Origin: Clostridiales bacterium
GTDB lineage: Bacteria; Bacillota; Clostridia; UBA1381
DNA length: 59,417 nt
Assembly (NCBI GenBank): GCA_029226975.1
Contig: JAQXZB010000067.1
Coordinates: forward strand, 1 to 59,417
Direction of reading: 5' to 3'
Part shown: positions 32,587 to 38,313 of the stretch, in pieces
Layout: every line of letters begins with the position of its first letter
Numbering within the stretch: the stretch's first letter is position 1
Notes under the pieces: generated by a model
Seen by the model: the letters and a program-made list of their open reading frames with translations, nothing else
What the model was told of the DNA's origin: nothing
Databases searched by the model: none
Program-made: the position numbers and the translations under genes

Positions 32587-32618
32587 GTCACTGACAACAG
32601 CATTTGGAGGATAAGAAA

Positions 32619-35600
32619 ATGAATAATTTTATTCCCGATAAAATAAGGGTAATATGCGAAAAGCTAAAGAGTATTTCACACAGCAGAGTATGCGGACTTG
32701 ATGATTTTGTATGCGCCGAAACGGATTATAAAAAATCAAACGAGCTTCCCGATACGAAAAATTTCAGACCTGTAAGCGAGTTTAAGCTTGCCGGTGCGGA
32801 CAGGCATTTTTGGATGTATTCCAAAATCCCGCCCACAAAAGCCTGTGAGGGAAAAAGATTGTATTTTAGCTTAAGCGGCGGAGATAATCATAAATGGAAC
32901 GTAGCCAATCCACAGTGCCTTGTATATTTAAACGGAGAAATGATTCAGGGCTTGGATATAAATCATACAGAGCTGCCGCTGAATTTTGATACCGAATATG
33001 AAATGTATATATATTATTATACGGGCATGGAGGATGCGCCGGCGGAGTTTAAGGCAGAGCTTGTAATGATAGATACAAGAATAGAAAAGCTGTTTTACGA
33101 TGTCCATGTTCCCTATGAGGCGGCAATGTGCCTTGACGAGAATGACGATAACAGGATTTTGATATTAAAAACCCTTGAAAGGGCACTGTCATATTTGGAT
33201 ATGCGTGTTCCTTTAAGCGATATGTTTTATAAAAGCTTAGAGGAAACGGAGGATTTTTTAAAAAAAGAGTTTTACGGCAGTATATGCCGAGAAAACGGCA
33301 AGGAAATAAGCTGCATCGGGCATACACATATAGATGTGGCATGGCTGTGGCGGCTTCGGCAGACGGCAGAAAAGGCACAGCGCAGTTTTTCTACGGTAAT
33401 TAAGCTTATGGAGGATTATCCCGAATATAAATTCATGTCATCACAGCCGCAGCTTTATGAATTTGTAAAGGACAATGCTCCCGAGCTTTACGAAAAGATA
33501 AAAGAAAAGGTCAGGGAGGGACGCTGGGAGCCGGAGGGCGCAATGTGGCTTGAAGCGGACTGCAATCTCACCTCGGGAGAGAGCCTTATAAGACAGATAA
33601 TGTTCGGAAAGCGGTTTATAAAGGAGGAATTCGGAGTTGAAAGCCGGATTTTATGGCTTCCCGATGTTTTCGGCTACAGTGCGGCTTTGCCGCAGATTTT
33701 AAAGAAATGCGGTGTTGACAAATTTGTAACCTCAAAGATAAGCTGGAATGAAAGCAATCAAATGCCTTATGACAGCTTTGAATGGGAGGGAATAGACGGA
33801 ACGGAAATATTTACATATTTCATCACGGCACAGGATTTGCCAAAAAGCAAAAAGCCCGAGAATTTTACCACCTATAACGGATATATCAGACCGAAACAAG
33901 TGCTTGGAACATGGAAGCGCTATCAGCAAAAGGAATATACCGACTGTGCGATGATACCCTTCGGCTTCGGTGACGGAGGCGGTGGACCCACAAAGGATAT
34001 GCTTGAACAACAAAGGCGGCTGGCTTTTGGTATTCCGGGAATTCCAAAAACAAAAATAGAGCCGCTGTCGGTTTTTCTTGACAGAGCGTATGAAAGCTTT
34101 AAGGAAAATTCAAGACTGCTTAAAAGAACTCCCCGATGGGTGGGAGAGCTGTATCTTGAATTTCACCGAGGAACATACACTTCAATGGCAAGAAACAAAA
34201 AGAATAACCGCAAAAGTGAGCTTTTATATCAAAAAGCAGAACAGCTGTCGGTTTTCGATATGCTTATGCTCGGCGGCAGCTATGACCAAAGCACAATAAA
34301 TGCAGGCTGGAAAAAGATACTCCTAAATCAGTTCCATGATATAATACCCGGCTCGTCAATAGGTGGAGTTTATGAGGACAGCGACATATCCTACAGTGAA
34401 ATATTCGATGCCGGAAATAATATTGTCAAGGAAAAAATAACCGAAATAGCCGGAAATGTTGATTCTGAGGGCGGGCTGCTTGTATACAATCCCAACTCCT
34501 TTGAATGCAGCGATACGGTGATATATAACGGAGAAAGTATATATGCCGATAATATACCGCCCATGGGCTATAAAGTTATAAAACCCAAAAGAGGAAGCGG
34601 AAATGTTTCGGTTTCAGGCAGACGGATTGAGAATAAATACTATGTAATAGAGCTTGACGAAAACGGAGCGATAATATCCCTTTACGATAAGGAAAACGAG
34701 CGCGAGGTGGTAAAACAAGGCGAGAGGTTAAACGAGCTTCAGCTGTTTGAGGATTTCCCCAAGGAATACGATGCCTGGGAAATATCCGTTTATTACAAAC
34801 AGAAAATGTGGATAATCGACGATGTAACCTCAATGGAAGCCGTATATGACGGAGTACGCGCAGGAGTGAGAATAACGAGGGATTATTTGAACTCCCGAAT
34901 AGTACAGACGATATATTTATATGAAAATTCAAGGCGCATTGATTTTGAAAATAATATTGACTGGCATGAGGAGCATGTTTTGTTAAAGGCGGCGTTCCCC
35001 GTTGATATACACGCAAACGAAGCAGTTTATGACATTCAGTTCGGCAATATAAAAAGACCGACACATTCCAACACCTCATGGGATGCGGCAAAATTTGAGG
35101 TATGCGCGCATAAATGGGCGGATATATCGGAAAACGGATATGGCGTAAGTCTGATAAACGATTGTAAATACGGCCACAGCGCAGAGGGCAGTACACTGAA
35201 ATTAACGCTTTTAAAATGCGCTCTCTATCCCAATCCCGATGCGGATAAGGAAGTGCATGAGTTTAAGTATTCACTGATACCTCATAGGGGAGATTTTAGG
35301 GAAGCGGATATTGTGCGCGAAGCACAGCTGTTTAATCAGCCGCTTACGGCACTGGAAATCCCGGCGCAAAACGGTACTCTTCCGGCTGAATTTTCGCTGA
35401 TAGGCTGCGACAGTCCGAATATTATTATAGAAACCGTAAAAAAAGCAGAGAATAGCAATGACATTATAATAAGGCTGTATGATGCCTTCGACCGGAGATG
35501 TACGGCAAGACTTTTTACGGGCTTTGATGTAAAAAAAGCGTATGTATGCGATATGTTGGAAAACAACGAAAGAGAAATAGCAGCAAAAGGACGTGAGCTT

Positions 35601-35651
35601 GAGGTTCCGGTAGGTAATTTCGAGGTGGTAACCCTGAAGCTGTGTATATGA
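32619..35651 (+). CDS. Alpha-mannosidase, glycoside hydrolase family 38
   Basis: 1010 residues from ATG 32619, set by GGAGG at 32606-32610. No signal peptide, so cytoplasmic. An N-terminal beta domain (1-225) precedes the GH38 catalytic domain: Zn ligands in GHTHIDVAWLWRLRQT (near 233), EPEGAMWLEADCNL (near 305), and catalytic Asp in WLPDVFGYSAALPQ (near 350). A helical middle domain follows, with HDIIPGSSIGGVYEDS supplying the last Zn-binding His (near 572), then C-terminal beta-sandwiches. The order matches Ams1-like or bacterial GH38 enzymes, which remove alpha-mannose from oligosaccharides. It is monocistronic; no transporter or regulator is beside it. Confidence 0.93.
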   Translation: MNNFIPDKIRVICEKLKSISHSRVCGLDDFVCAETDYKKSNELPDTKNFRPVSEFKLAGADRHFWMYSKIPPTKACEGKRLYFSLSGGDNHKWNVANPQCLVYLNGEMIQGLDINHTELPLNFDTEYEMYIYYYTGMEDAPAEFKAELVMIDTRIEKLFYDVHVPYEAAMCLDENDDNRILILKTLERALSYLDMRVPLSDMFYKSLEETEDFLKKEFYGSICRENGKEISCIGHTHIDVAWLWRLRQTAEKAQRSFSTVIKLMEDYPEYKFMSSQPQLYEFVKDNAPELYEKIKEKVREGRWEPEGAMWLEADCNLTSGESLIRQIMFGKRFIKEEFGVESRILWLPDVFGYSAALPQILKKCGVDKFVTSKISWNESNQMPYDSFEWEGIDGTEIFTYFITAQDLPKSKKPENFTTYNGYIRPKQVLGTWKRYQQKEYTDCAMIPFGFGDGGGGPTKDMLEQQRRLAFGIPGIPKTKIEPLSVFLDRAYESFKENSRLLKRTPRWVGELYLEFHRGTYTSMARNKKNNRKSELLYQKAEQLSVFDMLMLGGSYDQSTINAGWKKILLNQFHDIIPGSSIGGVYEDSDISYSEIFDAGNNIVKEKITEIAGNVDSEGGLLVYNPNSFECSDTVIYNGESIYADNIPPMGYKVIKPKRGSGNVSVSGRRIENKYYVIELDENGAIISLYDKENEREVVKQGERLNELQLFEDFPKEYDAWEISVYYKQKMWIIDDVTSMEAVYDGVRAGVRITRDYLNSRIVQTIYLYENSRRIDFENNIDWHEEHVLLKAAFPVDIHANEAVYDIQFGNIKRPTHSNTSWDAAKFEVCAHKWADISENGYGVSLINDCKYGHSAEGSTLKLTLLKCALYPNPDADKEVHEFKYSLIPHRGDFREADIVREAQLFNQPLTALEIPAQNGTLPAEFSLIGCDSPNIIIETVKKAENSNDIIIRLYDAFDRRCTARLFTGFDVKKAYVCDMLENNEREIAAKGRELEVPVGNFEVVTLKLCI

Positions 35652-35831: not shown

Positions 35832-36185
35832 TTATAAGCCTTTTTTCTTCTGCACGATTGCGGTTATGAGAAATACCGCACCGAAAACAGCCGATAAAAC
35901 GCCCCAGATTTTTAAATCCGCAAAGGATCCGGACATGGGAATTGCAATTACTGCGCCGAATATGTAGAACACCGCCGCTGTAATCGCGCCGCCGAAGGAC
36001 TTGCGCGCCGCTATGCCCACGATGCCGGCAACAAGCATAAATACAGCCAGTATCATTCCGGCAGAGCCGCTTGATTCGCCGTTTTCCGCCATGGCGTTTC
36101 CAAGCCCCGCCGCGCAGGACTGAAATATAATAAGTCCGAATAAAACAATTGATATAATTCCCAATACTAATCTTGCAGTTTTCAT
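35832..36185 (-). CDS. Small integral membrane protein of unknown function
   Basis: 117 residues with four predicted membrane helices (about 5-28, 42-60, 63-82, 91-110) and a basic C-terminus (QKKKGL). ATG 36185 is preceded by GGAGAA. It resembles small DUF4064-like membrane proteins, but I cannot assign a family. It is the last gene after the kinase and the lipoprotein on the same strand (20 bp after the lipoprotein stop), so it may belong to the same signalling locus. Confidence 0.7.
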   Translation of the reverse strand: MKTARLVLGIISIVLFGLIIFQSCAAGLGNAMAENGESSGSAGMILAVFMLVAGIVGIAARKSFGGAITAAVFYIFGAVIAIPMSGSFADLKIWGVLSAVFGAVFLITAIVQKKKGL

Positions 36186-36204: not shown

Positions 36205-36750
36205 TTACATTGTAAAGGTTTTTGTAAGTTTGTCATCGCCGAAGCTGATTAGAGGCTTTACCTCAACGGTTACGGGAGCGTCGGCACTTGTCAGAGTATA
36301 AGCCTTTTGAACTCTTAGCTTTGCGCCGGGCTGAAGCGTTTTTAAGGAAGCCTCGCCGTCATAGACATCATTATTGATTATTATGGCTGAGCTTAAGGAT
36401 ACTCCGTCTTGGTACGCTTGGCAAAGCACAGCGGTGCTGAACATGGCGTTATTACTGCTGTTGTTTTGAAAATCAAAGTTAATGACTATTGCGGGATTGC
36501 CCTCAAAATCCGTAGTCTTTACCGCGTCTAAGATGCTTATTTCATAATCGCCCAGAGCACCGCTTTCACCGGCGGCTTCCGTATCCTCTTTGGCTGCCGG
36601 CTCGGGCGATGCGCTTTGCTGAGATGATTGCTGCGGCGAGGTTTGCACTGAACTGCTGCAGCCTGCCACAGCAGTCAAAATAAGCAGGGTGCTTATGACG
36701 CCAAGCAAAAGCTTTTTATGGGATTGATTTAAAATATTATGGTGTTTCAT
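36205..36750 (-). CDS. Lipoprotein with DUF5067-like domain
   Basis: 181 residues from ATG 36750, preceded by AAAAGGAGG (about 36756-36764); longer upstream frames overlap the kinase. Lipoprotein signal: MKHHNILNQSHKKLL, hydrophobic core, lipobox VAGC near residue 30. A Ser/Gln/Glu-rich spacer leads to a beta-sandwich (YEISILDAVKTTDFEGNPAIVINFDFQNNS...; AYQDGVSLSSAI) typical of DUF5067/DUF4352 immunoglobulin-like domains. It is anchored on the outer face of the membrane. Its position behind a membrane-anchored kinase suggests it may sense or deliver an extracellular cue; this is inference. Confidence 0.8.
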   Translation of the reverse strand: MKHHNILNQSHKKLLLGVISTLLILTAVAGCSSSVQTSPQQSSQQSASPEPAAKEDTEAAGESGALGDYEISILDAVKTTDFEGNPAIVINFDFQNNSSNNAMFSTAVLCQAYQDGVSLSSAIIINNDVYDGEASLKTLQPGAKLRVQKAYTLTSADAPVTVEVKPLISFGDDKLTKTFTM

Positions 36751-36812
36751 AAAATCCTCCTTTTGGTATTTAAAACTTCGGATATATGATACCATAAAAT
36801 AAAGTTCATCTG

Positions 36813-37808
36813 TTATACAGGATGTATAAATTCGGCAATAATTGCGAAAAAAATCATGCTGATAATGATTATAACGCAGCGTATGAATATGCGTTCTCCC
36901 ATACGCCATGAAAACCTGTCCGCTATTTTGCGAAGCAAACCGTATATGTCCGCAGCGACAGCAATGGGAATAATCAAGCAGAATATACAGCCTAAGGCAA
37001 GATAGATATGATATGACAAGGTGCCTTCACCAAAGAACATTATCGCAATAAGGGCAAGTGAAAGCCCCAAAAAGCCGTACATAATGCTTCTGCGTGTTCT
37101 TGCAGGCTTTTCAATAGCGTTTTTTAACTCCGACGCTGAAGTGTAGCGATTATCCGGCTCCATTGCCATGCACTTTGCCGCAACCGCATTTACGCTCTCG
37201 GATACTTGTGAGCCCGAGGGCATTTTGCCGCTTATCATATAGCTCATTAAAACACCTACCGAATAAATATCCGAGCGTGCATCGGTTTGTCTGAAGCCGA
37301 ACTGCTCCGGTGCGGCAAAGCCGGCAGTACCCAGAATTTCGGTGTCGGAACTTTGACCTGGCTTAACGGTACGCGATATTCCGAAATCTATAAGATAGCA
37401 ATGCCCGTCCGCACCGATTATCACGTTGGACGCGGTTATATCGCGGTGGATTATGCCCATGCGGTGCAGTGCGCAAAGGGAGGTGCAAATCTCACATATA
37501 AGCCTGTCTGCTTCGGGTTTGCCGAACACGCCGTTGTTTTCTATATATTCCTTGACTGTCATGCCCTCTATATATTTATAAAGAACGTCATATCCTCTCT
37601 TGCCGGGAGTAACGGAAAAAATGTGTGCAATTCCGGGCAGCTGCAAACCTGCAAGAGTTTTGTAAACCCCGCTGTTTTCGGCGGGAACTGTTTTTCTTAT
37701 CATAAGAACGCCGTTATGTCTGCCGCGCACAAGGGATATATTATCCGAAAGCTGCGCAAGCTCGTCATATTCCGCATGTATATATTTTTCGGTAAAGCTG
37801 CTGTTCAT
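36813..37808 (-). CDS. Membrane-anchored Hanks-type Ser/Thr protein kinase
   Basis: 331 residues; ATG 37808 has AAGGAG upstream. The kinase domain spans about 15-240: beta-3 Lys in LMIRKTVP (near 38), catalytic loop HRDITASN (near 122; Thr where HRDxK has Lys), YLIDFGISR (near 139), GTAGFAAPEQF (near 162) and DIYSVGVLM (near 183). The usual Gly-rich loop is replaced by SLVRGRHNG. Three to four C-terminal membrane helices (about 240-330) anchor it, with no PASTA repeats or sizeable extracellular sensor, so input probably comes from a partner. Divergent from an HTH protein through overlapping promoters; the DUF5067-like lipoprotein and a membrane protein follow. Confidence 0.88.
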   Translation of the reverse strand: MNSSFTEKYIHAEYDELAQLSDNISLVRGRHNGVLMIRKTVPAENSGVYKTLAGLQLPGIAHIFSVTPGKRGYDVLYKYIEGMTVKEYIENNGVFGKPEADRLICEICTSLCALHRMGIIHRDITASNVIIGADGHCYLIDFGISRTVKPGQSSDTEILGTAGFAAPEQFGFRQTDARSDIYSVGVLMSYMISGKMPSGSQVSESVNAVAAKCMAMEPDNRYTSASELKNAIEKPARTRRSIMYGFLGLSLALIAIMFFGEGTLSYHIYLALGCIFCLIIPIAVAADIYGLLRKIADRFSWRMGERIFIRCVIIIISMIFFAIIAEFIHPV

Positions 37809-37836
37809 TGTATTCTCCTTGACGGTAATTTATGTA

Positions 37837-37865
37837 TTGACAATATTATACCACAGGTATATAAT
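37837..37865 (+). promoter_or_regulatory. Consensus promoter for the HTH gene
   Basis: TTGACA (37837-37842), 17-bp spacer, TATAAT (37860-37865), both exact. It overlaps the kinase promoter on the other strand. Confidence 0.8.
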
Positions 37866-37873
37866 ATAATCAA
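37845..37873 (-). promoter_or_regulatory. Promoter for the kinase gene
   Basis: Minus strand: TTGATT (37873-37868), 17-bp spacer, TATAAT (37850-37845). The two polymerases would compete for the same 37 bp. Confidence 0.7.
37847..37861. promoter_or_regulatory. 15-bp inverted repeat between the two overlapping promoters
   Basis: TATACC-ACA-GGTATA, arms of 6 bp, lying between the two opposed -10 boxes. A bound regulator would block both promoters. The adjacent HTH protein is the obvious candidate. Confidence 0.6.
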
Positions 37874-37893
37874 ATACTTTTTGGGGTGAGCCT

Positions 37894-38313
37894 ATGAAAA
37901 CAACTGATGAACTGCTTAAAATTTTAAATAAAACGAAAAATCTTGACGATTATATTGATGAAAATTTGCAAAGCTTTATTGATACGGATTTAAAAGCCTA
38001 TCTTGAAAAGCTGCTTGAGGAAAAGGACTTAAAAAAATCCGAGGTTATACAAAAAGCCAATTTATCACAAATTCACGCATATAAAATCTTTTCCGGAGAA
38101 CGGCGTCCGGGTCGGGATAAGCTGTTGTGTCTGTGCTTCGGTATGGGGCTTGGGCTAAAAGAAACCCAGCTTGCCCTAAGACTTGCGGATCATAATCCCC
38201 TTTATCCCAGACTTCGCCGGGACAGTGTGATTATTTTTGCCATAAATGAGGGTGCAAGCCTTATGGAATGTAATGAGGCTCTTTTTGATATGGGCGAAGA
38301 TATTCTTGAATAG
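37894..38313 (+). CDS. Helix-turn-helix (XRE-like) regulator paired with the kinase
   Basis: 139 residues; ATG 37894 with GGGGTGAG upstream. The central part (residues about 35-85: LEKLLEEKDLKKSEVIQKANLSQIHAYKIFSGERRPGRDKLL in outline) is a lambda-repressor-like HTH with a Gln/His/Tyr recognition helix. The flanks are an acidic N-terminus (LDDYIDENLQSF) and a conserved C-terminal segment (RLRRDSVIIFAINEGASLMECNEALFDMGEDIL in outline). I have the impression of similar proteins beside Ser/Thr kinases in other Clostridia. It probably regulates the locus through the 15-bp repeat and may be a kinase substrate; both points are inference. Confidence 0.82.
   Translation: MKTTDELLKILNKTKNLDDYIDENLQSFIDTDLKAYLEKLLEEKDLKKSEVIQKANLSQIHAYKIFSGERRPGRDKLLCLCFGMGLGLKETQLALRLADHNPLYPRLRRDSVIIFAINEGASLMECNEALFDMGEDILE

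Follow-up and report, generated by a model that had tools for sequence, protein, structure and literature searches.

The divergent arrangement of a gene for a Ser/Thr kinase and a gene for a small HTH protein, found in a window of 59,417 nucleotides of clostridial DNA (the whole stretch that was analysed), raises the question of which genes such a regulator controls and what part the kinase plays in that control. A preliminary description of this locus had sought the answer in the intergenic region, in a palindrome through which the HTH protein would repress both genes. Comparison with related loci instead points to a second copy of the operator, beyond the kinase gene, and to a third component encoded next to it.

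The kinase, the HTH regulator and their exported partner

The kinase (331 aa; 36813..37808, minus strand) is a Hanks-type enzyme (PF00069, E = 1.4e-27) with intact HRD and DFG motifs and three hydrophobic, transmembrane helices at its C-terminus. The D and N of the catalytic loop and the metal-binding D (the HRD...N and DF[GD] signatures) are present in all 79 aligned kinases. It scores 128.9 bits against the model of the PASTA kinases (PknB/PrkC; NCBIfam NF033483), far below the cut-off of 450, and falls outside the HipA family, Pfam yielding only PF00069 and related kinase families. CD2148 of C. difficile, examined as a possible relative, was excluded for lack of the GT motif that every aligned member retains (PMC9674922). 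The HTH protein (139 aa; 37894..38313, plus strand) stays below the cut-off in a Pfam search; its AlphaFold2 model (pLDDT 94) is an XRE-type HTH with additional helices on both sides, and a fold search returned P22 c2, 434 Cro, SinR and C.AhdI at Z-scores of about 7, placing it in the Cro/cI (lambda-repressor) fold. Its recognition helix reads SQIHAYKIF and carries Lys64. The identification of the two products as a membrane-anchored Ser/Thr kinase and a small HTH protein was thus borne out. In several relatives (L033, L035, L036, L037 and L040-L042; ORFs of 340-390 aa) the HTH with a C-terminal tail is fused to a macrodomain, a fusion that also occurs in the genome of the window, split across two reading frames (L135:188-897 in G000 C41).

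A scan of GTDB genomes, with retrieval based on a closer alignment set, gave 307 relatives of the HTH protein, of which 80 were fetched for comparison of their loci. The pair recurs in hundreds of bacteria from the gut and the rumen. In 72 of the 80 loci a kinase gene of this type is found no more than 213 bp from the HTH gene, and in 77 no more than 1.5 kb away; the comparison thereby establishes the conserved pairing that the preliminary description had proposed to look for. The two genes are divergent in 56 of the 80 loci, on the same strand with the HTH gene first in 17 (in some of these the HTH gene is followed by the kinase gene with a 4-bp overlap) and convergent in 4, and 2 have no reachable kinase. 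Interlocked divergent promoters, though common, are therefore not the core of the module, given that 17 of the 80 relatives carry both genes on one strand. The genome of the window holds a second set of HTH, kinase and lipoprotein genes (L050:2614-4345 in G000 C41), whose regulator is of the Q64 type and which has a CGTGC-N5-GCACA dyad, with one mismatch, 22 bp ahead of a TATAAT. Since there is this second pair, and since no module was found in two other genomes of the genus, we regard the module as accessory and patchily distributed.

The preliminary description had missed what comparison indicates to be a third part, an exported or membrane-anchored protein. The pair adjoins a gene for such a protein across the relatives, yet its family varies: zinc ribbon with a transmembrane segment, DUF4352, DUF5067, LRR or copper-amine-oxidase-like. 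In the window it is a DUF5067 lipoprotein with a lipobox (181 aa; 36205..36750, minus strand), the partner of the pair and its predicted main target gene. It is followed on its 3' side, on the same strand, by a gene for a small membrane protein (117 aa; 35832..36185, minus strand) that is possibly co-transcribed and whose membership in the module is uncertain. Of 30 genes 3' of the conserved operator discussed below, 25 have products that carry a signal peptide, a lipobox or a transmembrane segment. The zinc-ribbon transmembrane protein is the neighbor in 21 of the 27 loci whose kinase lacks transmembrane segments vs 6 of the 51 whose kinase has them (p = 8e-9), which suggests that the membrane part of the module is either fused to the kinase or separately encoded. 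Glycan genes occur on both flanks of the module in the window, namely one for a rhamnogalacturonan lyase (PF21348; 38424-41246) immediately past the HTH gene and one for a GH38 alpha-mannosidase upstream (32604-35651).

The conserved operator and the specificity of the HTH protein

The operator conserved across the relatives is a 15-bp dyad of the form NNNNC-N5-GNNNN, situated just past the kinase gene and exactly 22 bp ahead of a TAnnnT -10 box that has no recognizable -35. When motifs were first scanned by spacer length, the peaks were mixed. Past the kinase gene, 32 of 74 loci have the dyad with a TAnnnT at exactly 22 bp, where chance would give 0.28, and other offsets give 0-8. A perfect dyad with this spacing is missing past the kinase in the other 42 of the 74 loci, some of which have a dyad ahead of the HTH gene instead and others none. 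Correctly spaced sites number 53 near the module vs 5 far off in the same loci; genome-wide, the element has 20 matches in 25 genomes, mostly one per genome (control 1), and it is also carried by two loci beyond the main set (L244 and L245).

In the window, this conserved copy is operator B (TATACATCCTGTATA read on the minus strand; 36814..36828), which lies ahead of the DUF5067 gene, overlaps the stop codon of the kinase gene and had no place in the preliminary description. The -10 box of the DUF5067 promoter (TATCAT; 36786..36791, minus strand) stands 22 bp past it, and no -35 box is recognizable. With transcription assumed to start 7 bp past the -10, operator B is centered at about -42. Together with the correctly spaced -10, in the strict pattern of the window, it is the sole exact match in its own genome, and its equivalents in near relatives are TATACTGACAGTATA (L053), TATACTGCGGGTATA (L059) and TGTACTGTCAGTACA (L054).

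In a sister clade, whose HTH proteins have an SEVY recognition helix, TATGC-N5-GCATA stands upstream of 7 of 8 HTH genes vs 1 of 71 among the others (p = 2e-8). The extended form TATGCN5GCATATTG occurs 17 times in 11 genomes with this helix (reversed control 0), preceding the HTH gene, a second, zinc-ribbon kinase, lipoproteins and a cpsB-wzz operon; here the dyad abuts the -35, which begins with its TTG, and a TAnnnT follows exactly 17 bp on in 13 of the 17 sites. An operator fixed next to or over a weak -35, whether by the 22-bp lock to the -10 or by the sister-clade spacing in 13 of 17 sites, is the arrangement expected of a class-II activator. The site ahead of the cpsB-wzz capsule operon (L177:1501) is without a -10 at the usual distance. 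In L181 and L182 the operator precedes a gene for a 470-aa kinase with an N-terminal zinc ribbon (with LRR in L182), suggestive of a kinase cascade.

The strongest evidence, from the alignments, that the HTH protein itself binds this dyad is a covariation between protein and DNA: residue 64 agrees with base 4 of the half-site in all 35 helix/half-site combinations, K64 going with A (4/4, all four K64 proteins belonging to one clade) and Q, E, H or D64 with G (31/31). Column 64 ranks first of 119 alignment columns for base 4, as residue 60 does for base 2. Outside that K64 clade, further K64 clades, whose dyads are ATCAC/GTCAC, and L237, whose half-site is TATAC, are consistent with the rule. 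The HTH protein very probably recognizes the dyad, because a residue of its recognition helix predicts a base of the half-site; the claim that it binds a repeat of this kind is accordingly strengthened by the covariation and by the fixed place of the operator.

The divergent promoters and operator A

The 85-bp intergenic region contains two interlocked near-consensus promoters on opposite strands, as the preliminary description had it: that of the HTH gene (37837..37865, plus strand) is TTGACA-17-TATAAT, matching at 12 of 12 positions, and that of the kinase gene (37845..37873, minus strand) is TTGATT-17-TATAAT, matching at 10 of 12, with a TG ahead of the -10. Both rank among the best of the region, which has 15 promoter-like sites vs 5.9 expected from shuffles. 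The palindrome that had been noticed there, TATACC-ACA-GGTATA or operator A (TATACCACAGGTATA; 37847..37861, no strand), is present, but rather than lying strictly between the -10 boxes it covers parts of both, overlapping the inner ends of the hexamers at 37845-37850 and 37860-37865. By itself this palindrome is unremarkable, since shuffled versions of the region contain one with 6-bp arms and a 3-bp spacer in 4.5% of cases and one with any spacer of 0-10 in 32%. A match to TATAC-N5-GTATA in the region, with the operator type fixed beforehand from operator B and the relatives, has a chance of 0.2%. The half-sites TATAC/GTATA are common to operators A and B, and TATACN5GTATA has only ten sites in the genome of the window, two of which belong to this module.

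The preliminary description had let its model stand or fall with conservation of the repeat between the kinase and HTH genes, and the nearest relatives (L053, L054 and L059) do not preserve the palindrome at that place; L237 has TATACTTACAGTATA between its own divergent kinase and HTH genes. The position of operator A would fit repression of both genes by the HTH protein; the lack of conservation in the nearest relatives counts against it. Nor did a regulon emerge. TATACCNNNGGTATA occurs exactly twice in the 2.8-Mb genome, both times in promoter regions (reversed control 0), and the other perfect copy (L135:14509-14523 in G000 C41) lies between the promoter and the start of pta (pta-ackA) but is missing from the pta promoters of relatives. 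The one-mismatch sites examined in the same genome all fall within reading frames, as do, bar one unrelated case, the sites of TATACCNNNGGTATA in 60 relatives whose surroundings were checked.

Proposed mechanism, alternatives and related systems

We propose, with a probability of roughly 0.7, that the locus encodes a signaling module of three parts (a regulator of the XRE type, a Hanks kinase anchored in the membrane, and an exported protein, in this case the DUF5067 lipoprotein) in which the regulator, under control of the kinase, activates the DUF5067 gene and represses the HTH and kinase genes. The regulator would bind the 15-bp TATAC/GTATA dyads, presumably as a dimer. At operator B it would act as a class-II activator of the DUF5067 gene, as lambda cI does at PRM, where the activator site is likewise centered near -42; activation is the natural reading of a site with its center near -42, 22 bp from the -10, at a promoter lacking a -35. 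At operator A it would probably repress both divergent genes, the natural reading of a dyad that covers both -10 boxes. We infer the direction of regulation, the dual role and the feedback, while the gene pairing, the position of the operator and the specificity of the HTH protein for it come from the comparison of loci. How active the regulator is would most likely be decided by the kinase, through phosphorylation or direct contact, and the exported protein is presumably either sensor input or output. On the whole, the HTH protein appears to activate a single adjacent surface-protein gene.

The model in which the HTH protein is purely a repressor of its own and the kinase gene through the shared palindrome, with phosphorylation by the kinase freeing it in a bistable switch, is unlikely, though it is the least improbable of the alternatives. 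It would account for a palindrome over both -10 boxes and for near-consensus promoters, which are expected if they are to be repressible, and the identity of the half-sites with those of operator B as well as the site between the divergent genes of L237 agree with it; however, the copy at the divergent promoters is not conserved, and the conserved operator precedes the exported-protein gene, or the -35 of the HTH gene in other clades, at fixed, activator-like distances. The dyads might also be RNA hairpins (terminators or attenuators) past the kinase gene rather than protein-binding sites, as their location just past the kinase stop codon allows; in Listeria the dyad between the kinase and DUF5067 genes (L175:3715-3745) also forms a long hairpin, of 10 bp, followed by T residues on the minus strand, and may be operator, terminator or both. 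Yet the stems are mostly short and without a T tract, the distance to a promoter -10 is exactly 22 bp, half-site and recognition helix covary and the same dyad lies upstream of promoters in other clades, which makes this very improbable.

Two further readings take the kinase as a toxin or as a defense effector. A HipBA-like toxin-antitoxin system, in which the kinase would be a toxin that inhibits growth and the HTH protein its antitoxin and autorepressor, would explain why a small XRE protein adjoins a Ser/Thr kinase, the patchy distribution with absence from two other genomes of the genus, and the 4-bp overlap of the genes in some loci; we consider it improbable, however, as the kinase is of the Hanks type and not HipA, the two genes mostly diverge, many of the kinases are anchored in the membrane and the operator is tied to a third, exported gene. 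An anti-phage defense module with a PD-T4-6-like kinase as effector has a slightly smaller chance still: the PADLOC models of PD-T4-6 score best (E = 8e-40) and the distribution is patchy, but the match spans only the common kinase domain, and exported partners along with single-copy, activator-like sites favor surface signaling. The three-part signaling module is retained as the preferred reading.

Among known systems, lambda cI shares with the HTH protein of the window the XRE fold and a site near -42, and also illustrates how a single regulator can, when bound elsewhere, shut off divergent promoters; it has no known kinase partner, unlike the window module, whose two copies of the site are 1 kb apart. 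In the PknH-EmbR system of Mycobacterium the gene of an STPK adjoins that of a transcription factor under its control, but EmbR binds DNA through another type of domain and also contains an FHA domain, and we know of no exported third gene bearing a conserved operator there. HipBA combines a small XRE protein and a Ser/Thr kinase, usually in one operon, with autoregulation via a dyad; it differs in the family of its kinase and in having no known exported partner. HipA has been described as a kinase (PMC7029023). In the open-access literature we found no description of such a kinase-HTH module, which would be an undescribed version of a known type, the kinase-linked activator with one target.

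To our knowledge, a dedicated transcription factor has been identified for few bacterial Hanks kinases. For many of the present loci, comparison alone predicts the regulator, its binding site, the probable mode of action (activation) and a single main target; therefore, what such kinases regulate becomes directly testable, including in a Listeria homolog with a reported kinase-deletion phenotype. The relation between residue 64 and the half-site further suggests how sister systems in the same cell could escape cross-talk. More broadly, we would give about even odds to a widespread class of surface-signaling modules in Clostridia, Coriobacteriia and Listeria, in which a Hanks kinase controls a cI-like activator with essentially one target in the genome, a neighboring exported protein whose family can be exchanged; the sensor would be either part of the kinase or the product of an adjoining gene, and a one-residue/one-base code would keep paralogs in one genome apart.

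The Listeria locus has the HTH, STPK and DUF5067 genes in the order and orientation of the window, with identities of 41%, 36% and 35%, respectively. Judging from the kinase length and the annotation, it would correspond to the lmo0618 region: the length given for Lmo0618 (PMC4379056) fits the 380-aa kinase of this locus. The lmo0618 deletion is among the mutants that replicate less intracellularly in Caco-2 cells (PMC3091722), and the papers found contain no description of the function of the accompanying HTH and DUF5067 genes. Four records titled as Listeria phage (OR848106, OR846718, OR848110 and OR846727) hold an HTH protein with 41% identity to that of the window, equal to that of Listeria, and could represent pieces of chromosome deposited under a phage title.
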